This document shows positions 2,402 through 11,793 of a DNA stretch of 11,793 nucleotides, piece by piece (within the stretch, counting starts at the first letter, position 1; every line of letters begins with the position of its first letter). The position numbers and the translations under genes were made by a program. Below the pieces are notes generated by a model. That model was given only the letters and a program-made list of their open reading frames with translations, was not told the DNA's origin and searched no databases. The DNA is taken from assembly GCA_021160155.1 (NCBI GenBank), contig JAGHDB010000310.1, positions 1 to 11,793 of the forward strand, read 5' to 3'. The DNA comes from Bacteroidales bacterium (GTDB lineage: Bacteria > Bacteroidota > Bacteroidia > Bacteroidales > UBA12481).

Positions 2402-3079
2402 CTATCCGTTCTTGCTCAGAGTCTCCAGTGTTTTTTTATCCAGGATCTCCAGACAGCCTCTTTCTTCAGCGATAATTCCGCTTCGGGTAAAACTTTTAAT
2501 AACCCGTACCGCACTCATATGAGACATCCCGGCAAATTCACCTAAATCCTTGCGGGTGAGTGATAATTTGAAACGGTTTGCATGAAAAACCTCATCAGCC
2601 AAATAAAGCAGGGCATCTGCCATACTGCCGTTCAATTGCTTTCTCGTCATAGTTACAATCTTGTTGTAATGATAAAGAGTTCGCTGATTTACGGTTGACA
2701 GAATCTCCCTGCCAAACTGAGGGTTTGAAAGAATCAACTCTTCAAAAACCGTCCGGTCAATAGCACAGATTACAGAATCTTCAAGGGCGGCAACCGAATA
2801 TTGAAAAGTTTCACTGGAAAAAAGATGCGGCAAACCTATATAATGACCATCGGAGTATATGGTTAAGATCAGATTAAAATCACCGGGTATCTCCTTGTAA
2901 ATCTTCACCAAACCCGTTTGTAAAAAAAGCACATGGGTCAGAAAAGATCCCTGTTTGGCAATGTGCTCCCCTTTTTTATAGGTAAGTTCCACTCTCCGGT
3001 TATTGGCAAAATCAAGCTCCAGTGGTTTTAAAAACTTGAAACAGCTTGACTTATTCTTACATTCAGGACAATTGGCCAT
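2402..3079 (-). CDS. FNR-type Crp/Fnr transcriptional regulator with complete [4Fe-4S] cysteine set
   Basis: The 225-residue protein has a cyclic-nucleotide-binding-like beta-roll domain (about 20-115), a dimerisation helix (about 118-150) and a C-terminal winged helix-turn-helix (about 172-215). The N-terminus has C4-x2-C7-x5-C13, the same spacing as Cys20, Cys23 and Cys29 of E. coli FNR. ALEDSVIC with Cys105 aligns with ALETSMVC holding FNR Cys122. All four ligands of the oxygen-labile [4Fe-4S] cluster are therefore present, and anaerobic activation is the likely mode. In the recognition helix the FNR E-x-x-S-R residues are replaced by Met188, Val191 and Arg192, so the DNA target probably differs from TTGAT-N4-ATCAA. 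An upstream in-frame start at 3187 would add 36 residues. I chose 3079 because that extension overlaps the likely promoter and operator and the length then fits the family. The gene is divergent from the respiratory operon, its likely target. Confidence 0.88.
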   Translation of the reverse strand: MANCPECKNKSSCFKFLKPLELDFANNRRVELTYKKGEHIAKQGSFLTHVLFLQTGLVKIYKEIPGDFNLILTIYSDGHYIGLPHLFSSETFQYSVAALEDSVICAIDRTVFEELILSNPQFGREILSTVNQRTLYHYNKIVTMTRKQLNGSMADALLYLADEVFHANRFKLSLTRKDLGEFAGMSHMSAVRVIKSFTRSGIIAEERGCLEILDKKTLETLSKNG

Positions 3080-3124
3080 AAAAAAATATCCAGCTAATAA
3101 ATAAAATAACATTTCAGGAAGCGA

Positions 3125-3132
3125 CAAAGTTA
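3125..3132 (-). promoter_or_regulatory. Bacteroidota-type -7 promoter element for the FNR-type gene
   Basis: The minus strand reads TAACTTTG, a perfect match to the Bacteroidota sigma -7 consensus TAnnTTTG. It would give a leader of about 40 nt before the ATG at 3079. A TTTG lies upstream (3148-3151), but with only 15 nt between, shorter than the usual 19 or so, so the -33 element is uncertain. Confidence 0.5.
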
Positions 3133-3145
3133 CAAGAGTTTGTAA
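3130..3145. promoter_or_regulatory. Perfect 16-bp inverted repeat, candidate operator
   Basis: TTACAAGAGTTTGTAA is a perfect palindrome with 6-bp arms (TTACAA/TTGTAA) and a 4-bp spacer. It overlaps the upstream edge of the TAACTTTG promoter element, with its centre near -18 of the regulator gene. A dimer bound there would block RNA polymerase. The size fits a Crp/Fnr-family site, so autorepression by the adjacent regulator is the simplest reading. The sequence is not the E. coli FNR box, in line with the changed recognition helix. A TetR-type or other dimeric repressor site cannot be excluded. Confidence 0.5.
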
Positions 3146-3215
3146 AACAAATGAACGTAAATCAACTTTTTTATTGCGCAAGATCATTCTTTCGATTATT
3201 CTATCTATCTACATA

Positions 3216-3326: not shown

Positions 3327-3821
3327 ATGAAAATAAAAACCATCCTGATTATGTCGGTCATCCTGTTTATCGGCTGGCTGATAATGAACAACTCGCTTCA
3401 ACCCGGGATTGTAATCAGCGGAGCCATCCTTTCGGTGGGTATCTCCATGATTTTCTGCCGGTACTGCAGGCTGATTAACGATGTTCGCCTCACTCCTAAA
3501 GCACTCGCATATTCGTTTGCGTATATTTTTGTTTTCAGCTGGGCTTTGATCAAAGCCAATCTGGATGTAGCCTCCAGGGTGATACGTCCTTCACTCCCGA
3601 TCAAACCGGGAATTGTTCAGGTCAGGACTAAGCTCAAATCAAAAATCGGCCGGCTGATTCTGGCCAATTCAGTCACTCTGACACCCGGCACTTTAATAGT
3701 TGAATACCACGATGATCTGATGTTCATTCATTGGATTGACGTAAAAAGTGAAGATGTGGAAAAAGCCTCACAAGAAATTATCGGTCAATTTGAAAAATAC
3801 CTGGAGGTAATGTATGGTTAA
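3327..3821 (+). CDS. mrpE: MrpE/MbhA-type antiporter-module subunit
   Basis: This 164-residue membrane protein begins the operon. Hydrophobic segments lie at about 5-21, 28-44 and 58-77, followed by a cytoplasmic domain of about 85 residues ending near the MrpF start. The stretch ANSVTLTPGTLIVEY (113-127) is the hallmark of the MrpE/MnhE family. In Mrp antiporters and in Mbh/Mbs complexes this subunit belongs to the Na+/H+ exchange module with MrpF and MrpG; it is thought structural rather than catalytic. ATG at 3327 gives the usual family length; no Shine-Dalgarno sequence precedes it. Its 3' end overlaps the next gene by 8 nt. It corresponds to MbsA/MbhA by position. Confidence 0.92.
   Translation: MKIKTILIMSVILFIGWLIMNNSLQPGIVISGAILSVGISMIFCRYCRLINDVRLTPKALAYSFAYIFVFSWALIKANLDVASRVIRPSLPIKPGIVQVRTKLKSKIGRLILANSVTLTPGTLIVEYHDDLMFIHWIDVKSEDVEKASQEIIGQFEKYLEVMYG
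3803..3807 (+). promoter_or_regulatory. Ribosome-binding site of the MrpF-like gene
   Basis: GGAGG lies 6 nt before the ATG at 3814, inside the end of the MrpE-like gene. It picks 3814 over an ATG at 3810 in the upstream gene's own frame. Confidence 0.6.
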
Positions 3822-4074
3822 TACAATTCTTACCATAGCGGGGGCCCTGATGCTGGTAGCTATTTTGCTCTCTTTGTATCGTTTTCTGAAAGGCCCTACC
3901 ACTGCGGATAAAGTAGTGGCATTTGATGTTATGACAGTTTCATCCAGCGCCATCCTGGTACTGTTGGGTTATTACAGTAACCGGTACATCTATCTGGATG
4001 TCGCCCTGGTGTATGGCCTGCTTAGTTTTATCGGGGTCATTATTGTGGCCCGTTATATTGAAAAAGGATATTAA
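3814..4074 (+). CDS. mrpF: MrpF/MbhB-type antiporter-module subunit
   Basis: An 86-residue protein with three transmembrane helices (about 4-22, 34-52, 58-80), the normal size and topology of MrpF/MnhF. The loop RFLKGPTTADKVVAFDVMT (23-41) is the family signature, with the conserved G-P-x-x-x-D-K-V-V-A-x-D pattern. It joins MrpE and MrpG in the cation-translocating part of Mrp antiporters and of Mbh/Mbs complexes, where it equals MbhB/MbsB. The start overlaps the preceding gene and has a GGAGG ribosome site; the stop is 1 nt before the MrpG-like start, so translational coupling is likely. Confidence 0.93.
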   Translation: MVNTILTIAGALMLVAILLSLYRFLKGPTTADKVVAFDVMTVSSSAILVLLGYYSNRYIYLDVALVYGLLSFIGVIIVARYIEKGY

Positions 4075-4075
4075 A

Positions 4076-4432
4076 ATGGATGTATTAGCAATTATCGGAG
4101 CGTTCATCACCCTCATCGGATCGATATTCATGGTATTGGGCGCATTGGGCCTGGTTAGAATGCCGGATGTATTTAACCGGATACAGACCGGCACCAAAGC
4201 TTCTACCCTGGGTACTATTCTGAGTTTGCTCGGACTGGCATTGATCGTTCCTTCCTGGTCAGGCAAGCTTATCAGCTTCATACTGTTTGTCGGGCTGACA
4301 AACCCGGTATCTTCTCATGTTCTGGCCCGTGCAGCGCATCATCTGAAGATTCCCATGTCTGTGTCTGACCGGACTGTTACGGATAAGCTCAGTGAATATT
4401 ATAATAATAACCCAAAAGAAGTGGAAGAATGA
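4076..4432 (+). CDS. mrpG: MrpG/MbhC-type antiporter-module subunit
   Basis: A 118-residue protein with three hydrophobic helices (about 3-26, 42-60, 64-82) and a short polar C-terminal tail. MVLGALGLVRMPDVFNRIQ (19-37), KASTLGT and the later LTNPVSSHVLARAAH are the recognised MrpG/MnhG signature. ATG at 4076 fits family length and follows AGGA at 4065-4068 with good spacing; an extension upstream would run through the MrpF gene and add non-family sequence. The tail is Asn- and Glu-rich, and its stop overlaps the next start as ATGA. By order it equals MbhC/MbsC. Confidence 0.93.
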   Translation: MDVLAIIGAFITLIGSIFMVLGALGLVRMPDVFNRIQTGTKASTLGTILSLLGLALIVPSWSGKLISFILFVGLTNPVSSHVLARAAHHLKIPMSVSDRTVTDKLSEYYNNNPKEVEE

Positions 4433-4674
4433 TACTGATTATAGTTTCAATGGTTTTGGGCGTAGTTATGATCGCAGTTTCCCTGGTTGCCCTTCATACC
4501 AAAAAATTGCAGGCTGCCATCCTGGCTGCAGGCGTATTGTCACTCATGACTTCCATCCTTTTTCTGTTACTGGCTGCACCGGATGTAGCATTAACCGAAG
4601 CAGCCATAGGAAGTGCCCTGACCACGGCAATATTTTTTTACGTGTTGAATAAAATCAAAAATACCCATGTATAA
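4429..4674 (+). CDS. mbhD: MbhD-type subunit (DUF4040; MrpA C-terminal domain homologue)
   Basis: An 81-residue protein with three helices (about 1-22, 29-49, 56-75). LLLAAPDVALTEAAIGSAL (47-65) is the strongly conserved DUF4040/MrpA C-terminal signature. The acidic residues there (Asp53, Glu58) lie in a buried polar region linked to ion movement in Mrp and Mbh structures; the fold is related to NuoJ. In Bacillus-type Mrp this domain is part of large MrpA, whereas Mbh/Mbs operons carry it as a separate small gene, as here. There is no separate MrpA in the cluster. It overlaps both neighbours (4 nt upstream, 8 nt downstream). Confidence 0.9.
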   Translation: MILIIVSMVLGVVMIAVSLVALHTKKLQAAILAAGVLSLMTSILFLLLAAPDVALTEAAIGSALTTAIFFYVLNKIKNTHV

Positions 4675-5365
4675 AAAATTGTTTGTCCTCCTTTTACTGG
4701 CTGTGCTGGGATGGTCATTTTTTACTCTCCTTCAGACACACCAGGAGCGACAAAGCCTGAATCCTTTGTCAAAACACTATGTCGAAAAGGGACCGGATGA
4801 AGTGGGTGCACCAAACTTAGTCACAGCCATTGTAGTCACCTACAGGGGATTTGATACCCTTGGCGAGGTTACCATTCTGTTTGTTTCGGCTGCTATTGTA
4901 GGGCTCTTCCTGAAAACCGAAAACCGTCGGCGTAAGTATAAAATCAGAAGCACCAGTGAAATATTGCATGCGGCTCAGCGTCTGTTGTTCCCGGTAATGA
5001 TTCTTTTCGGTATTTATATTTTTATGAATGGTCACCTGACACCGGGAGGAGGGTTTCAGGGAGGTGCGGTAATCGCCACCGCCATGATCCTGGTTCTGCT
5101 GACCAACCCTGAAAGTCCGATCAGCCACCGGGCATTTAACCTGTTAGAATCCGTTTCAGGATTCTCCTATATTATAATAGGTGTTTTAGGCGTACTCCTT
5201 GCCGGCGGATTTTTGGATAACCACATTCTGCCCCTCGGCAAGTTCGGGAACCTGTTCAGCGCCGGTGCTATCCCACTTATCTACTCTTTTGTCGGATTAA
5301 AAGTGGGTTCAGAACTCTCCAGTATTATACTCAACCTCAATGATGTTCAAAAAGACGACAAATGA
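4667..5365 (+). CDS. mrpB: Fused MbhE-like and MrpB/MbhF-type subunit
   Basis: The 232-residue protein has two parts. Residues 1-88 resemble the end of MrpA/MbhE: a helix at 4-22, then YVEKGPDEVGAPNLVTAIVV (38-57), YRGFDTLGEVT (59-69) and a second helix to about 82. Residues 95-232 are MrpB/MnhB-like with four helices and the signature NGHLTPGGGFQGGAV (121-135). A basic linker, RRRKYK (87-92), joins the parts. Mbh of Pyrococcus has these as two genes (E and F), while the archaeal Mbx/Mbs gene list, as I recall it, has no separate E. The start lies inside the DUF4040 gene and the stop overlaps the next gene as ATGA. The role is as part of the Na+/H+ antiporter-like arm. Confidence 0.9.
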   Translation: MYKKLFVLLLLAVLGWSFFTLLQTHQERQSLNPLSKHYVEKGPDEVGAPNLVTAIVVTYRGFDTLGEVTILFVSAAIVGLFLKTENRRRKYKIRSTSEILHAAQRLLFPVMILFGIYIFMNGHLTPGGGFQGGAVIATAMILVLLTNPESPISHRAFNLLESVSGFSYIIIGVLGVLLAGGFLDNHILPLGKFGNLFSAGAIPLIYSFVGLKVGSELSSIILNLNDVQKDDK

Positions 5366-5733
5366 ATTTTTTCAGTGTACAAGGCATTAGTCTAACGATC
5401 GGTTTTATTTTGATCCTGATTGGATTGTGGGGTATTCTCACACAACGGAACCTGATCCGGATCATCATTGGTTTCACCATTTTTAATAATGGTGTCAACC
5501 TCATAATCGTTGCACTTGCCTACATGAAGGGTCGTACCGCTCCCATAATCGACCAGGTAGTCACCCGGACTGACGCCGTTGACAAAGTGGCTGACCCGAT
5601 TCCGCAGGCATTGGTACTGACCGCTATTGTCATCGGAGTGGGTGTCACTGCGGTCATGCTCTCCTATACATTACGCATGTACAGAGCAAAACACTCATTA
5701 GAAATTAATGTTTTTACTGAATCAAAATGGTAA
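5362..5733 (+). CDS. mrpC: MrpC/NuoK-type subunit (MbhG-like)
   Basis: A 123-residue protein with three helices (about 9-25, 31-53, 84-110), the normal size of MrpC/MnhC and MbhG, which are homologous to complex I NuoK. Typical features are the helix-2 segment IIIGFTIFNNGVNLII (34-49) and DPIPQALVLTAIVIGVGVTA (79-98). A polar loop of about 28 residues separates helices 2 and 3. In complex I-like machines this subunit sits between the ion-pumping MrpD unit and the rest of the membrane arm. It overlaps both neighbours (4 nt and 7 nt), consistent with coupled translation. Confidence 0.92.
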   Translation: MNFFSVQGISLTIGFILILIGLWGILTQRNLIRIIIGFTIFNNGVNLIIVALAYMKGRTAPIIDQVVTRTDAVDKVADPIPQALVLTAIVIGVGVTAVMLSYTLRMYRAKHSLEINVFTESKW

Positions 5734-8700
5734 CACCGATACATTTAGTTAGCGTTGCACTGGGCACCGCCTTTCTCCTGGGATTCACCAAAGACCGGAA
5801 CTGGAAAATTTCAGGGGGATTGGTATTGCTGGCCCTGCTGCTTATGAACCTGATCTCCGGAAGTTGGACCTATGCACTGTTTTTTGGTGACCAGGTGCCT
5901 GTACAGGTCTTTACGGCAGGCTTTAAACCTCCCTTCTCAATCAATCTGCAGATGGGCCGGTTTGAAGCGGCAATCACCCTGATGATCAACTTTGCCGGAT
6001 TGTTAGGCGCTATTTACCTTTTCGACCGGTTAAAGAAAGCAGGACGATATGCTTTTATGGTCTATATGGTCTTTATTCTCGGCCTCAATGTAGCCGTGAT
6101 GACCCGTGACCTTTTTAACCTGTTCGTATTCATGGAGATCACTACCATAGCCACTGCAGGTTTAATCTTCCTGGTCCAAACCGGTAAAGCAGCCGCAGCC
6201 GGTCTAAAATATATGATAGCCACTTCCATCATCTCCGGAGTTCTGTTAATCGGTATTATTTTTGCTTACTCATTGGTCTCTACCCTGAACCTGGATGGGA
6301 TCATAGACGGTGGATTACCTCTTATCAAAGGAGGTGCCATGGTGGTCTTTCTTATCTTAATCGCTTTGCTGCTGGAATCAAAACCTTTTCCGGCCAACGG
6401 TTGGGGCCTCGACGTATATGAAAGTGCCCATCCTGGTATCGGAGCCATGCTTTCGGTAGCAACCGGACCGATGATTGCATACGTAATATTTAAAGTACTC
6501 CCCATTTCAGGCGGCGCCTGGAACCACCTGATTGCCATTACCGGGATCATCACTTTCGTGGGATCTAATTTTCTGGCAATCAAACAACATAATACACAGC
6601 GCTTACTAGGATACTCCTCTGTGGCCCAAGCTGGTATTTTATTAATCGCCATTGGTCTTCAGAAAGAGCTGGGACACACGTTCATTTATGTTGCTGCCGG
6701 TTTACTGATGACCAATTATTTTGCCAAAGCGGGTCTTTTCTGGCTTTCGGGCCTGATTAAAGGAGAATCCCTTCAAGACTGGACACAGCTGAAAGGTCGA
6801 CCGGTACTTCTTTTCCTGTTTGGATTATTTGTTTTCAGCCTGGCAGGATTTCCACCATCCCCGGCATTTTTTGCCAAATGGGAATTGATTATGCAACTGG
6901 CATCCCACGGCGGATATGTTTGGATGGTATTCATTCTGATCGGATCTTTCTTCGAATTGATCTACCTGACACGTTGGTTCGGACAGGTGATTGGTTCGAA
7001 AGAAAAATCATCTGCCCAGCCTGATTTGGCCACACACCGCCTGGTGCCTGTGGGTATAATGGGTGTCGGACTCCTGGGAACCATGGTTTTCTTCCTGCAC
7101 CATTATGCCCCTGATCTGGCTATCGATTTTATCCCGATTATTTTTATTGCCGCCCTTTTTATCCTGGATTTTCTGCCTGCATTCTTGAAAAATACAGTAA
7201 CCATCTTAGCAATGGGTTGGTACTTATTGCAACACATCTCAGATGTACAGAATGATACAGTCAGATTAATCTTTTTTCTGATTTTTCTCGCCGGCGGAGC
7301 GATTAGTCTTCTTGCCGGATTCAGTTATAAAGGAAAACGGATAGGATATTATCCCTTTGTAGCCATGACTTTCGTGGGCTTAACAGGATTGGTTACCGCT
7401 ACAACTACTCTGGGTTTCTTTCTCTCCTGGGAATTGATGGCTCTGGGTTCCTACCTGCTGATATCCAGGGGTAAAAACGCCCAAAAAACTTCCTGGATCT
7501 ATATCCTCTTTTCAGTTGGAGGTGCTTATTTACTGCTGATGGGTTTCGGTGTGTCGTTTGCAGTCACCGGAGACGGATTATTAAGTTCTTTGGGAATAGC
7601 TGCCCGGGCACTACCCGCAGTGGGAATCCTGCTGACAATTGGTTTTCTTAGTAAAATTGCTGCAATGGGATTGCATATCTGGCTTCCCGGCGCTTATGCC
7701 GAGGCTGAAGATGATGCCACACCCTTCATTGCCGGGATCATGATGAATGCCGGTATTTTCGGACTCATCCTGTCGCTCTCAATTATTGCAGGCCATCCTT
7801 TTACCTGGTGGCTGGGCTGGCTGGGGGTCATAACTGCAGTCGGAGGCAATATACTGGCCGCATTCCAGGAGGATGCAAAAAAACTGATTGCTTATTCCAG
7901 TATCGGAATCATGGGCTATATTTTATTCGCCCTCTCCATGAACATCCAAATGGCCTGGATGGCTGCTCTTTATTATGTGGTTTTACATTTCCTTTATAAA
8001 ACAATATTGTTCCTGGCTGTAGGCGGAGTGATTTTTAGAACCAAAACCAGGGAAATGTACCAAATGGGTGGGTTGATCAAAAAAATGCCACTCTCCTTTA
8101 TTTCCGTTCTGATCGGTATCATTGCATTGGCAGGTATTCCTCCACTGGCAGGTTTCGGCGGCAAGTGGCTGTTTTATAATGCAGTGGTGATGAACGGCTG
8201 GTACCTCCAGGGAGCATTGGTTTTCTTTTCCGGAGTAGTAGCCTTTCTCTATTGCTTTAAACTGATTTCTGCCATTTTTCTGGGCCAGGCAAAAGACCGG
8301 TATCGTCATATTAAAGAAGCACCGGTATGGTATATCCTGCCTCAATACCTGCTGATCATCGGGCTTTTGATATTCAGTGTTTTACCAGAGCTGGTACTGC
8401 AACCTGTTGCTCATGCCCTAAGGAGTATGCCGGGAGAAGGTATTCAATGGGACGGGCATTTTGCACAGACCTCATTCGGATATTGGAATGCATTTATCGT
8501 CATGACTGTAATCGCAATCATGTTTGTGATATTGTTGGCCTGGTTGATCCTGAATAGCCGGAAAGCACAAAAAGTGAAACAGTTCGACATGGTTTTTGCC
8601 GGGGAAACCCCGTTCACACCGGAAACTTCTCATGTCGCTTATAATATTTATGCTCCTTTTAATAAAGCACTGGGCTTTCTGGTCGTACCCGTCACCACCT

Positions 8701-8843
8701 GGTTCTGGCATGCCACAGCTTCTGTTACAGATGCCTCTGCCAATCATCTGAGAAAATGGTACAACGGAAACGGTCAAACCTATGCCCTGCAGATGGTGAT
8801 CTATATTGTTATGTTTTACCTGATTATACGTGGAGGATTCTGA
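5727..8843 (+). CDS. Double MrpD/NuoN-type proton-translocating subunit fusion (MbsH-H' like) with MbhI-like C-terminal tail
   Basis: At 1038 residues this is twice the length of a normal MrpD/NuoN subunit. Two pump-like units are visible. Unit 1 (about 1-495) has helix-5 FVFMEI with Glu137, RLLGYSSVAQAG (292-303), Lys334 and GFPPSPAFFAKW (374-385). Unit 2 (about 510-890) has LSWELMALGSYLL with Glu569, SKIAAMGLHIWLP with Lys643, DAKKLIAYSS with Lys718, HFLYK with His754/Lys758, and GIPPLAGFGGKW (803-814). Unit 2 wording resembles HyfB/HycC-type and Mbs H' subunits. The last 120 residues add helices plus YNGNGQTYALQM (1012-1023), which resembles Mbh subunit I, the anchor to the NuoH-like subunit. 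Unit 1 lacks some canonical charged residues (see findings). No stop or frameshift lies between the units. The role is H+ (or Na+) translocation driven by the peripheral redox arm. Confidence 0.9.
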   Translation: MVTPIHLVSVALGTAFLLGFTKDRNWKISGGLVLLALLLMNLISGSWTYALFFGDQVPVQVFTAGFKPPFSINLQMGRFEAAITLMINFAGLLGAIYLFDRLKKAGRYAFMVYMVFILGLNVAVMTRDLFNLFVFMEITTIATAGLIFLVQTGKAAAAGLKYMIATSIISGVLLIGIIFAYSLVSTLNLDGIIDGGLPLIKGGAMVVFLILIALLLESKPFPANGWGLDVYESAHPGIGAMLSVATGPMIAYVIFKVLPISGGAWNHLIAITGIITFVGSNFLAIKQHNTQRLLGYSSVAQAGILLIAIGLQKELGHTFIYVAAGLLMTNYFAKAGLFWLSGLIKGESLQDWTQLKGRPVLLFLFGLFVFSLAGFPPSPAFFAKWELIMQLASHGGYVWMVFILIGSFFELIYLTRWFGQVIGSKEKSSAQPDLATHRLVPVGIMGVGLLGTMVFFLHHYAPDLAIDFIPIIFIAALFILDFLPAFLKNTVTILAMGWYLLQHISDVQNDTVRLIFFLIFLAGGAISLLAGFSYKGKRIGYYPFVAMTFVGLTGLVTATTTLGFFLSWELMALGSYLLISRGKNAQKTSWIYILFSVGGAYLLLMGFGVSFAVTGDGLLSSLGIAARALPAVGILLTIGFLSKIAAMGLHIWLPGAYAEAEDDATPFIAGIMMNAGIFGLILSLSIIAGHPFTWWLGWLGVITAVGGNILAAFQEDAKKLIAYSSIGIMGYILFALSMNIQMAWMAALYYVVLHFLYKTILFLAVGGVIFRTKTREMYQMGGLIKKMPLSFISVLIGIIALAGIPPLAGFGGKWLFYNAVVMNGWYLQGALVFFSGVVAFLYCFKLISAIFLGQAKDRYRHIKEAPVWYILPQYLLIIGLLIFSVLPELVLQPVAHALRSMPGEGIQWDGHFAQTSFGYWNAFIVMTVIAIMFVILLAWLILNSRKAQKVKQFDMVFAGETPFTPETSHVAYNIYAPFNKALGFLVVPVTTWFWHATASVTDASANHLRKWYNGNGQTYALQMVIYIVMFYLIIRGGF
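8832..8837 (+). promoter_or_regulatory. Ribosome-binding site deciding the NuoH-like start
   Basis: GGAGGA lies 7 nt before the ATG at 8845 and overlaps the end of the fusion gene. This favours ATG at 8845 over the in-frame GTG at 8830, which would lie upstream of the ribosome site. Confidence 0.65.
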
Positions 8844-8844
8844 T

Positions 8845-9753
8845 ATGTCATTTGACTGGTTAATTAAAATAGGATATGTACTGCTGGGTCTGTTTATTGT
8901 ATTGAACTATGGCCTTTTGCAATACGGAGTCATCAGGCGGATTTCAGCGCGAATCGGCAAACGAATCGGGGTTAAGGTATATCAGCCTTATATTGACCTG
9001 ATCAAGAACTATTCGTTTCGTTCACAAATCACCCACGGTGTAATGTTTTACCTCGGACCGGTATTCAGATTATCAGGGGGTGTGGGGGTTTTTCTCTTTA
9101 TGCCGTTGATCTTCGGATCTGAGCATTTCAGTAATTACTCTTTCTCCGGCGATCTGATCCTGATCCTCTATTTTCTCTTTTTCGGGATGCTCGGGATGGC
9201 ACTGGGTGCCGGAGAAGGCGGTCACCCGTACTCCTTTATAGGGATCAGCAGGGGATTATCCCAGTTCACTACTATTGAATTACCTTTTACCCTGGCCGTA
9301 ATATCTCTGGCTATTCAATACCACACTTTTTCCATTACGGATATCGTAGCCGCTCAACAGGGTGGCATCATGCATTGGACCCTGATGACCAATCCGTTGG
9401 CCACCGCAGCCGCCATGCTCTCCTTTCTGGGTATGATGGGAAACTCTCCGTTTAATGTGGTGATCGCACCGCAAGAAAATCCGATCGGCCCCCCCACTGA
9501 ATACCACTCGACTTTTCTGGCTGTTTTGCAAACCAACCGGGCTATTCTGGGACCGGTTGAAGCCATCCTTATGGTGAATCTTTTCTTTGGTGGCGCAACC
9601 AATTGGGTAAGTTTGATCATCAAATCGTTTTTGGTATTCTTCTGGCCGGTTTTCGTTGGTATCGTTTTCCCCAGATTCAGGGTTGACCAATCCATTCCCT
9701 GGTTCCTGAAATTACCCTTTGTCTTAGGTATCCTGGCCATTTTTCTGATATAA
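8845..9753 (+). CDS. mbsM: NuoH/MbhM-type membrane anchor subunit
   Basis: A 302-residue, eight-helix-type membrane protein of the NuoH (respiratory chain NAD1) family, which links the hydrophilic redox arm to the ion-pumping arm. The first loop RISARIGKRIGVKVYQPYID (33-52) matches the conserved R-x-x-AR-x-G-x-R-x-G-x-x-x-x-QP-x-x-D pattern. GAGEGGHPYSFIGISRGL and APQENPIGPPTEYHS hold the conserved acidic loop residues near the redox arm. The C-terminal helices end at the membrane without extension. It starts 1 nt after the fusion gene's stop. Its place before the NuoB-like gene matches the archaeal Mbx/Mbs order; in Mbh the equivalent gene follows the NuoD-like one. Confidence 0.92.
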   Translation: MSFDWLIKIGYVLLGLFIVLNYGLLQYGVIRRISARIGKRIGVKVYQPYIDLIKNYSFRSQITHGVMFYLGPVFRLSGGVGVFLFMPLIFGSEHFSNYSFSGDLILILYFLFFGMLGMALGAGEGGHPYSFIGISRGLSQFTTIELPFTLAVISLAIQYHTFSITDIVAAQQGGIMHWTLMTNPLATAAAMLSFLGMMGNSPFNVVIAPQENPIGPPTEYHSTFLAVLQTNRAILGPVEAILMVNLFFGGATNWVSLIIKSFLVFFWPVFVGIVFPRFRVDQSIPWFLKLPFVLGILAIFLI

Positions 9754-9762
9754 TAATCCATT

Positions 9763-10422
9763 ATGGAAAACAAAGATTTTATCAAACCCTATTATGAGTC
9801 TAAGATAGTCGAATCTCCTGACGGAGAAGAGATTAAAGTAAATCCACTGGAAGATTATTTTTGCGGAGAGGCTCCTAAAAGCCATGCACCTAACAGCAAT
9901 AAACTTTGGGAAAGCTTTCTTAACTGGGCCCGGGCCGAATCGCTTTGGGTGCTGGGCTTCGGAACCGGATGTGGCAGTATGGAAATCCTGCCCCTGATGA
10001 CTCCCCGGTTTGATGCTTATCGTTTTGGTGTACAGATGCGCCCCACTCCCCGGCAATCCAATGTGATTATTATCTCCGGATACCTGAGCGTGAAGACGTT
10101 GAAAAGAGCCATCCGAAGCTATGAACAAATGCAAAACCCCAAATATGTCATGGCTCTGGGAAGTTGTACCATCAACGGGGGAATGTACTACGACAGTTAC
10201 AATACCATAAACCGACTGGATCACTATATGCCGGTGGATGTTTATATAACCGGCTGCATGCCAAGACCTGAAGCGCTGCTGGCAGGTTTTGAAGAGATGA
10301 AGCGACTGATAAAAGCCGGTAAAGGAGAAAAAGCCAACGAGTACGCTGAAAATTTTGAATGGTATAAAGCCAATCAGAAAAAAATTATTAAAGACTGGAA
10401 CATGCCGGATTATAATTGGTAA
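9763..10422 (+). CDS. mbsJ: NuoB-like small subunit with three-cysteine proximal cluster site (MbsJ-like)
   Basis: This 219-residue protein is the NuoB/hydrogenase small-subunit homologue that carries the last [4Fe-4S] cluster before the active site. Cluster ligands are Cys70 (FGTGCGSMEI), Cys135 (ALGSCTINGGMYY) and Cys165 (YITGCMPRPEALL). Complex I has a tandem Cys-Cys at the first site and [NiFe]-hydrogenases have CxxC; here the position of the second cysteine is Gly71. Three protein ligands imply an open iron site, as proposed for the Mbs sulfane-sulfur reductase. An extra Cys34 lies in an N-terminal extension of about 45 residues (DYFCGEAP). RPTPRQSNVIIISG (93-106) is the typical helix-loop. 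A charged tail of about 40 residues follows the core. The start is 9 nt after the previous stop. Confidence 0.92.
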   Translation: MENKDFIKPYYESKIVESPDGEEIKVNPLEDYFCGEAPKSHAPNSNKLWESFLNWARAESLWVLGFGTGCGSMEILPLMTPRFDAYRFGVQMRPTPRQSNVIIISGYLSVKTLKRAIRSYEQMQNPKYVMALGSCTINGGMYYDSYNTINRLDHYMPVDVYITGCMPRPEALLAGFEEMKRLIKAGKGEKANEYAENFEWYKANQKKIIKDWNMPDYNW

Positions 10423-10427
10423 AGATC

Positions 10428-10955
10428 ATGCAGGAAATTATAGAACGAATCAGTAAAGTATTTTCAGTAGAGGAAGTAGTGCAACAGAATAATCACCAGT
10501 GGTTTATTACCGTACCTAAGAAGCAGGCACTGGAATCCGTCACCTATTTGCGTGACCGGGAAGGATTTGTGCATTTTGTCCTGCTCAGTTGTGCTGATTG
10601 GATTGAATCGGGGAAATTTCAACTGACTTATCTGCTGAATCATCCCGTTAAAAAAATAGATTTAGGTATCCGTGTTTTTATCGACCGGGAAAATGCAGAA
10701 ATGGAATCGGCCCATTATCTCTGGGAACAGATTGCTACTTATCAACGTGAGCTGTATGAAATGTTTGGAATTAATTTTCCGAACAGTCCTCGCCTGACCG
10801 ATCCGCTACTACTTGAAGGATGGGATAATATTCCACCCATGCGGCGCGATTTCGATACACTGAAATATGTAGAAAAAACTTATTTCCCCACACCGGGTCG
10901 CAAATCAAATGATCCGGGTACCTATATGAAAGAAAAGCTTTATCCGAATGAATAA
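10428..10955 (+). CDS. mbsK: NuoC-like 30-kDa-type subunit (MbsK/MbhK-like)
   Basis: A 175-residue soluble protein of the NuoC (complex I 30 kDa) family, a structural partner of the NuoB- and NuoD-like subunits in the peripheral arm; it binds no cofactor. The family signature is plain: ATYQRELYEMFGINFPNSP (114-132), LTDPLLLEGWDNIPPMRRDF (134-153). The C-terminus continues about 20 residues past this, as is common. I start at ATG 10428, 5 nt after the NuoB-like stop; a TTG at 10416 would add only four residues and overlap that gene. It overlaps the NuoD-like start by 8 nt. Confidence 0.9.
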   Translation: MQEIIERISKVFSVEEVVQQNNHQWFITVPKKQALESVTYLRDREGFVHFVLLSCADWIESGKFQLTYLLNHPVKKIDLGIRVFIDRENAEMESAHYLWEQIATYQRELYEMFGINFPNSPRLTDPLLLEGWDNIPPMRRDFDTLKYVEKTYFPTPGRKSNDPGTYMKEKLYPNE

Positions 10956-11793
10956 TAAACTTATTTCATTGCGAGCCGACCGGAGCCTTTTCCCTAAAGA
11001 AGGGCCAGATGGCAAACTTGAGATCGACCTTGAATCAGGGAAATACATTAAAGTCTGGCATGGACCGAATCACCCGGGAGTTACCGGAAATATGTCACTT
11101 GAAGTGACTATCTGCGGAGATGAAGTGGTTGAATCTAAAACCCATGTGGGATATCTTCACAGGGGATTCGAAAAACTCTTTGAAAGACGCAAATGGATAC
11201 AGTGCTTTCCGACCAGTATCCGGATGTGTGTACCCGAACCCGATTCAAATGAATATAATTTTGCTGCCTCTGTTGAAGAATTGGGTAATATTGAAGTACC
11301 GGAATATGCCCAATGGTTGCGCATGCTGGCATTAGAAATGGCCCGTCTGGCCATTCTGCTGAGAGTGGTTCCGGCTCATGGAGGCACCATGGGACTCGGC
11401 CTTGGCGTACAATGGGGTGTATATCTTCGTGACCTGCTCCTCGACCGGTTTGAAGAGCTGACCGGCGGGCGTGTTTATCACATGTACATTATTCCCGGGG
11501 GTGTTCGCGGCAAACTACCTGAAGGTTTTAAAAGCCGGTTGACCGAAAATCTGAAATTAATCGACGAATTTACGGTGCGAATTAAAAAATTGATGTTCGA
11601 TAATGCCGTATTTAAAAAACGTGCCATCGGCCTGGGTGTAATCAAACCCGAATGGGTTTACCAATATGGTATCGTGGGCTCAAATGCCCGCGGAGCCGGG
11701 TTTAATTTGGATGTCAGAAAAGACTATCCCTATCTCTTCTATGACCAAATTGATTTCGAGCCTCCTGTGGGTCATGATTCGGATGTTTATACA
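10948..11793 (+). CDS. mbsL: NuoD-like large subunit lacking canonical [NiFe] and quinone-site residues (MbsL-like; 3' end cut)
   Basis: 282 residues are visible of a protein that usually has about 400-430; I translated it directly. It belongs to the NuoD/group 4 hydrogenase large-subunit family: HGPNHPGVTGN (38-48), THVGYLHRGFEKLFE (65-79), SVEELGNIEVPEYAQWLRML (108-127), GGRVYHMYIIPGGVRGKLPE (173-192) and GSNARGAGFNLDVRKDYPY (244-262). At the first nickel-binding motif, where hydrogenases have R-x-C-G-x-C, this protein has R-M-C94-V-P-E97, so the second cysteine is Glu. Where complex I has His in GPxHPSTHG for quinone, this has Thr46. It is therefore unlikely to be a normal [NiFe]-hydrogenase or quinone reductase. 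The C-terminal DPCxxC region lies beyond the edge. The start overlaps the NuoC-like gene by 8 nt. Confidence 0.9.
   Translation, partial: MNNKLISLRADRSLFPKEGPDGKLEIDLESGKYIKVWHGPNHPGVTGNMSLEVTICGDEVVESKTHVGYLHRGFEKLFERRKWIQCFPTSIRMCVPEPDSNEYNFAASVEELGNIEVPEYAQWLRMLALEMARLAILLRVVPAHGGTMGLGLGVQWGVYLRDLLLDRFEELTGGRVYHMYIIPGGVRGKLPEGFKSRLTENLKLIDEFTVRIKKLMFDNAVFKKRAIGLGVIKPEWVYQYGIVGSNARGAGFNLDVRKDYPYLFYDQIDFEPPVGHDSDVYT

Follow-up and report, generated by a model that had tools for sequence, protein, structure and literature searches.

The window considered here is the whole of contig C76 (11,793 bp) of a Bacteroidales assembly that comprises 411 contigs and is 81.6% complete. On its plus strand, from 3327 to 11793, the reading of open reading frames (ORFs) and Pfam matches delineate an operon of the Mbs/Mbx type, whose genes follow one another almost without gaps and each have a Pfam match above its cut-off. 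The order is MrpE, MrpF, MrpG, MbhD, MbhE/MnhB, MrpC, an ORF with two MrpD units, NuoH, NuoB, NuoC and NuoD; all the genes that an earlier note on this DNA had named, as the series E-F-G-D-(E/F)-G-(H-H')-M-J-K-L, are thus present in that order and on that strand, with Pfam support. Two antiporter-like units and a NuoH gene ahead of the NuoB gene are what is expected of MBS/MBX complexes, and the two MrpD units proposed in the note were found, with the refinement that both lie in one fused ORF. Its proposal of a Bacteroidota host is confirmed by the finding that the NuoB of G004 (locus L022), a genome of the same family, is identical to that of L048, a locus from a Bacteroidales metagenome-assembled genome (MAG).

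The operon opens with MbsA (MrpE, MNHE; 3327-3821; PF01899, 134.6 bits), MbsB (MrpF; 3814-4074; PF04066, 64.3 bits) and MbsC (MrpG, PhaG; 4076-4432, start inferred; PF03334, 87.1 bits), followed by MbsD (DUF4040/MbhD; 4429-4674; PF13244; best PDB match 6u8y_D), MbsE, which joins MbhE and MnhB domains (4667-5365; PF20501 and PF04039), and MbsG (MrpC, Oxidored_q2; 5362-5733; PF00420; best PDB match 6u8y_G). The 1038-residue ORF at 5727-8843 has two stretches of Proton_antipo_M (PF00361) and codes for MbsH fused to MbsH': the best PDB match of residues 7-259, the first stretch, is 6u8y_H (MbsH, 91 bits), and that of residues 514-1029 is 6u8y_X (MbsH', 200 bits). That this fused ORF might be due to chance or to an artefact was rejected, because H-H' is a single ORF in 67 of the 68 loci with both ends covered, the exception being L081 with a 901-residue frame. 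MbsM (NuoH, NADHdh; 8845-9753, start inferred; PF00146, 138.2 bits) precedes MbsJ (NuoB, Oxidored_q6; 9763-10422) and MbsK (NuoC, Complex1_30kDa; 10428-10955, start inferred; PF00329, 85.2 bits), while the contig ends within MbsL (NuoD, Complex1_49kDa; 10948-11793; PF00346), which contains the MBS-like motif RMCVPEPD and is cut, together with the operon, at residue 282.

Comparison with solved structures, which covered subunits J, L, H, H', G and D, points to MBS throughout. NuoB scored 205.5 bits with MbsJ (6u8y_J), against at most 130.3 for complex I, 102.9 for MbhJ and 80 for formate hydrogenlyase; the corresponding values for NuoD were 177.1 bits with MbsL (6u8y_L), at most 149.3 for complex I, 88.7 for MBH and 62 for formate hydrogenlyase, and the best PDB matches of H', H, G and D also belong to 6u8y. 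A NuoB tree, for which the earlier note had called, was built from 84 group rows (83 loci and the window, with two identical pairs) and 18 references, after dropping the short reference row L006; all 84 rows form one clade with the MbsJ of Pyrococcus furiosus (support 100/100), separate from NuoB, MbhJ and HycG, with a long-branch warning among the references and a bootstrap not fully settled. NuoD was placed by scores and residues. Structure scores, cluster ligands and the NuoB tree agree with the view that the complex is of the Mbs/Mbx type, neither an Mbh hydrogenase nor complex I, and on sequence grounds its membership in this family is firm.

General homology is all that speaks for two other identities, a standard complex I that reduces quinone and a NiFe hydrogenase of group 4. 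The features of complex I, i.e., a NuoEFG input module, the quinone His/Tyr and tandem Cys in NuoB, are missing: NuoB has no tandem Cys, NuoD lacks the equivalents of His38 and Tyr87, and no NuoF specific to the complex was found in the genome, in line with the expectation that it has no NuoEFG set of its own. The only two PF01512 proteins of this 81.6%-complete assembly are accounted for by RnfC and by a NuoF encoded beside NuoE and an FeFe hydrogenase gene; the search was made with PF01512, and NuoG was not sought by itself. Nor are the two Ni-Fe Cys pairs of the group 4 enzymes (Mbh, Ech, Hyc) in place, since MbsL retains at most one Cys of each nickel-binding pair; the window's own genome gave no PF00374 match and no second NuoD-like protein. 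Both identities were rejected on residues, genome searches and the NuoB tree, and their probability is next to negligible. Because it is group 4-like, has Mrp subunits and lacks nickel ligands, the system does fall under Ehr, a broad label for such hydrogenase-related complexes (PMC6349859); MBS is the more precise name.

In the P. furiosus MBS the proximal cluster is bound by MbsJ C28, C93 and C123, whereas C25 does not bind it and can be dispensed with; when the unique iron is taken out, about 98% of the activity is lost, and MbsL C85 and C385 are not required (PMC7684303). In the window, MbsJ C70, C135 and C165 correspond to the three ligands and Gly67 occupies the place of C25, the loop being in register with MBS. 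The three Cys are invariant in 82 of 82 rows, the window included and the duplicate loci L048 and L083 dropped, and the fourth position is never Cys (81 Gly, 1 Ala). In MbsL, the places of Nqo4 His38 and Tyr87 are Thr and Val in all the 74 rows counted (of 80, six short ones being dropped), as in P. furiosus MbsL, while other complexes of the relatives have His/Tyr there in 15 of 15 cases; the acidic residue that MbhL has at the quinone His/Tyr place is also lacking. Equivalents of C85 and C385 occur in 59/74 and 30/74 rows, respectively, and the window's genome has both. Given the invariant three-Cys cluster, the Thr/Val replacement and the broken nickel pairs, the chemistry is neither of the nickel nor of the quinone kind, so the active site is predicted to be of the sulfane type.

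A search of the same genome, for which the gene lying downstream in a relative served as query, located the rest of the operon on contig C402 (locus L108). The minus strand, from 4309 to 1758, codes for the last 100 residues of MbsL (ending in ICPPEIER), then for a 593-residue protein, in which an MbsN domain is fused to a flavoprotein of the GltD/NfnL type, of the flavin adenine dinucleotide (FAD)-NAD(P)H kind, and then for a rubrerythrin-like protein; a PEP carboxykinase gene lies further along, on the opposite strand. The NuoI/MbsN-like gene predicted downstream of MbsL is therefore there, as a domain of this fusion. The gap between C76 and C402, estimated from the intact relatives L021 and L022, is about 40 nt, or about 14 unseen codons, and the two contigs are inferred to be adjacent. 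The C-terminal 440 residues contain [4Fe-4S], FAD and NAD(P) domains; the MbsN half matches 6u8y_N (77.9 bits) and is identified by sequence, as the VIA-align structure list covers residues 156-593 and has no chain for it. The cluster cysteines are conserved in both halves.

The fusion gene follows MbsL in 72 of the 72 loci that extend past it; the stand-alone, ferredoxin-accepting MbsN of MBS/MBX complexes is thus replaced here by a fused one, a further stand-alone copy not having been sought. NCBIfam NF010590 (PRK13984, "putative oxidoreductase", 611 positions) covers the fusion end to end, and this family could carry a more telling name. Among 14 control genomes, Thermotoga maritima is the only one with a protein above the NF010590/PRK13984 cut-off, encoded by a gene which presumably belongs to its mbx operon; in a sample of the phylum, the fusion was detected in 2 of 395 genomes (E <= 1e-150). 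No NfnS gene was seen beside the fusion on C402. As for the next gene, in 62 loci it was ferritin/rubrerythrin-like in 18, dihydroorotate-dehydrogenase-like in 16, CBS-domain-like in five, ArsR-like in two and of another kind in 10, with nothing within 400 bp in the remaining 11; seven further loci ended too early to count. The ferritin/rubrerythrin-like gene, located 3' of the fusion at 1758-2213 of C402, recurs in these 18 of 62 relatives from distant phyla, and in L047 it is followed by an apparent peroxiredoxin. The dihydroorotate-dehydrogenase-like gene, found in L021 (15789-16772; PRK07565) and 15 other loci, might code for a partner of the fusion flavoprotein.

The association of MbsN with an FAD/NAD(P)H module whose cluster cysteines are conserved makes NAD(P)H a likelier partner than ferredoxin. 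From what can be read in the sequences, namely the family, the cofactor ligands, the loss of the nickel and quinone sites and the fusion with its conservation, the complex is proposed, with judgment leaning slightly in favor, to be an ion-translocating NAD(P)H:sulfane-sulfur oxidoreductase, an MBS variant whose donor, acceptor, direction and pumping are inferred. In such an enzyme, the ferredoxin-accepting end of MBS/MBX would have been replaced by a flavoprotein: NAD(P)H would reduce FAD in the GltD/NfnL-like half, whose two [4Fe-4S] clusters would hand the electrons on to the two clusters of the MbsN half; from there they would reach MbsJ and its proximal cluster, whose fourth iron, devoid of a Cys ligand, would cleave the S-S bonds of polysulfide or of a different sulfane. 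Coupling of the reaction to the movement of H+ or Na+ through the Mrp-type arm would fall to MbsL, MbsM and the fused MbsH-H'. The earlier note had proposed a ferredoxin-dependent reductase of sulfane sulfur or of another acceptor; this is supported in part, the sulfane-type core being borne out, while dependence on ferredoxin is not supported in the form proposed, as MbsN is fused to a GltD/NfnL-like module.

Several points weigh against the proposal. The join between C76 and C402 is not sequenced, the YRR form is missing in 50 of 66 fusions, and YeeE had no match in the window's own genome. For members bearing the fusion, we are aware of no activity measurements. From standard potentials, the step from NAD(P)H to sulfane spans about 60 mV, that is about 12 kJ/mol per two electrons, a small energy; values given for comparison are 12 kJ/mol for MBH and 41 kJ/mol for MBS (PMC7684303), and the NAD(P)H case resembles MBH. 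In the membrane arm, the lysine of transmembrane helix 8 (TM8) is lost from the H half in all the rows and from H' in the window and in loci L025 and L026, and pumping may be weak. The MbsN clusters, moreover, could take electrons from ferredoxin, which is the donor assumed in the published models of Thermotoga and Zhurongbacter MBX (PMC9431562, PMC10356935).

A ferredoxin-dependent sulfane reductase like that of P. furiosus, with the GltD half as a side branch exchanging electrons with NAD(P), would fit these models as well as the conserved cysteines of the MbsN half and the Rnf and Nfn genes of the genome, both for users of ferredoxin (ORFs read by eye). However, MbsN always came as a fusion in the 72 loci, where extra stand-alone copies were not looked for, and such strict retention would be surprising for a mere side branch; this reading is considered unlikely. 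Still less support is given to an ion-pumping ferredoxin:NAD(P)+ oxidoreductase with MbsJ and MbsL non-catalytic: it was an earlier proposal for MBX (PMC3608648, PMC6349859) and the fusion does combine ferredoxin-like and NAD(P) sites, but invariant proximal-cluster ligands are unexpected for an idle site, and the P. furiosus MBS reduces dimethyl trisulfide (PMC7684303), and this reading is highly improbable.

The pumping residues of the membrane arm, assigned according to PMC7684303, are kept in part. The equivalent of MbsD E58 is Glu in 54 of 54 rows, while that of MbsG E37 is Asn in the window and variable elsewhere (D42 N10 E5 S4 T2 G2 over 65 rows). The fused H half keeps the equivalents of E138 (69/69), E219 (68/69) and K393 (69/69); none of the 69 rows retains K250, the TM8 lysine. 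In the H' half, K248 is kept in 65 rows and is Asn in the window, L025 and L026, one row being cut. In a quickly built H-H' tree with 34 rows, these three loci group together as a clade (SH-aLRT 96), and all of them lack an Arg in the PFN loop of MbsM; at the TM11 His position of the H half, the window, L026 and L076 have Asn. In the window, the sites are residues 248 (TM8 of H, Pro), 330 (TM11, Asn) and 674 (TM8 of H', Asn) of the fused ORF and residue 200 of NuoH (the PFN-loop Arg, Asn); L026 has the same four-site pattern, with Ala for Arg, and L025 has part of it. The idea that this lineage is an outlier in lost ionizable residues was rejected: it lost 4 in 100 conserved membrane columns, against a median of one in the 48 fullest rows and up to seven in others, and what is notable is only where the losses lie. 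As a speculation, a weaker pump would match the lower driving force available from NAD(P)H; however, a tie between loss of the H-half lysine and the NAD(P)H module is weakened by L122 and L123, which have the module and keep the lysine. Antiporter units that have lost their lysines provide a natural experiment on coupling.

When named genomes, many of them MAGs with binning as deposited, were scanned, at least 206 loci were confirmed, 80 of which were taken. The protein cluster to which the window's NuoB belongs (P0001) is also represented on a contig of 51,933 bp. According to record titles, they belong to Bacteroidota, Chlorobiota, Marinimicrobia, Spirochaetota and Pseudomonadota, and further to Calditrichota, Delongbacteria, Cloacimonadota, Caldisericota and Aminicenantes. 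In the window's own order, the NuoB of the complex was found in 34 of 247 sampled genomes (E <= 1e-70, both subtypes counted), and YeeE/YedE was commoner in genomes with the complex (27/34 vs 91/213, kinship not accounted for), many YeeE matches being fragments with stops. Within the same taxonomic order, a subtype with separate H genes is found at L122 (4232-15105) and L123 (4525-15616), the two loci that were read; judged by NuoB identities of 57-62% beside 74-76%, G453, G457, G502 and G562 seem to hold both subtypes. No plasmid carriage was seen among the top 20 matches of each search, all below 60% identity. The record names of several carriers (SulCav, Zod) point to what we take to be sulfidic sites.

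Carrier titles also include Thiothrix, Lamprobacter, Lamprocystis, Thiosymbion, Sedimenticola, Magnetovibrio and Sideroxydans, which oxidise sulfur; Prolixibacter denitrificans, Rhodobacter aestuarii and Thiothrix caldifontis are carriers that can be cultured. Such carriers, above all the sulfur-oxidising Proteobacteria, would suit a complex running in reverse, in which the ion gradient and electrons from sulfide or persulfide reduce NAD(P)+, and the small driving force would allow reversibility. The window's host, however, resembles a fermenting anaerobe, with no evident need for such a reaction, and reverse operation is distinctly unlikely. Its genome contains Rnf and Nfn genes (ORFs read by eye) and an FeFe hydrogenase gene; the search for Nfn suggested in the earlier note was answered by NfnSL genes on contig C364 (ORFs read), and that for CoA-disulfide reductase gave three matches, all far short of the curated cut-off (the best at 95.9 bits against 578.8); as none of the 14 control genomes reaches this cut-off either, the outcome carries little weight. 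One molybdopterin-family protein (45 bits) has its frame cut by a contig end.

Divergent from the operon, a Crp/Fnr-type regulator is encoded on the minus strand (2402-3187; Pfam cNMP_binding and HTH_Crp_2); a Crp/Fnr-like cluster, judged by eye, flanks 18 of 84 loci. Beyond it, on the regulator's strand (1-2295), are genes for a carboxyltransferase of the acyl-CoA carboxylase type and for an enoyl-CoA hydratase-family protein, whose top NCBIfam model is gamma-carboxygeranoyl-CoA hydratase, both below curated cut-offs; the pair perhaps serves leucine or terpenoid degradation.

MBS is regarded as linking hydrogenases to complex I (PMC7684303), and studies of it have dealt with hyperthermophiles, in which it is a ferredoxin enzyme; here an MBS core is seen in Bacteroidota, Spirochaetota, Pseudomonadota and other groups, together with a flavoprotein of the NAD(P)H type. 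If the proposed NAD(P)H:sulfane-sulfur function is true, a complex I-like core would be joined to pyridine nucleotides through a different flavoprotein, sulfur reduction, or NAD(P)+ reduction driven by sulfide, could be ascribed to an enzyme amenable to testing in sediment bacteria and purple sulfur bacteria, and the donor shown in models of the T. maritima MBX would deserve re-examination. More tentatively, and with some doubt, these complexes might represent an unrecognized class of respiratory complexes, with a GltD-type flavoprotein for NuoEFG and S-S bonds for quinone, spread over at least nine phyla by record titles, which in anaerobes would reduce sulfur from stores or from the environment and, running backwards, would drive electrons from sulfide to NAD(P)+ with the proton motive force in sulfur oxidisers.

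Among known systems, the P. furiosus MBS (PDB 6u8y; PMC7684303) shares the subunit set and order A-B-C-D-E-G-H-H'-M-J-K-L-N, the three-Cys proximal cluster, the equivalents of MbsL C85/C385 and the Thr/Val in place of the quinone residues; unlike it, the present complex has MbsN fused to a GltD/NfnL flavoprotein, H fused to H', Gly for MbsJ C25, about 46 N-terminal residues outside the MbsJ match and no TM8 lysine in the H half. The C-terminal 440 residues of the fusion resemble NfnL, Xfn and the small subunit of glutamate synthase (PDB 5jfc, 5vj7, 2vdc), but here the module stands behind an MbsN domain and is encoded with a membrane complex. The separate-H subtype (L122, L123) has the same gene order, the fusion and a three-Cys MbsJ without C25, and differs in H and H' being two genes that keep the TM8 lysine, with 24-63% identity in aligned stretches. 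The likeness to the bacterial MBX of T. maritima, published as ferredoxin-dependent (PMC9431562), comes from the fusion-family match. The earlier note's "unexplored" in a bacterium was too strong in general, since MBX/MBS has been published for T. maritima (PMC9431562), Thermoanaerobacter (PMC3608648), where it is presumed to be a ferredoxin:NAD(P)+ oxidoreductase, and Zhurongbacter (PMC10356935); among the papers listed in searches of the open-access literature, none was found on the present mesophilic group or on an MBX flavoprotein subunit. Bacterial MBX/MBS is thus already known, and what is new is the fusion variant and its spread.

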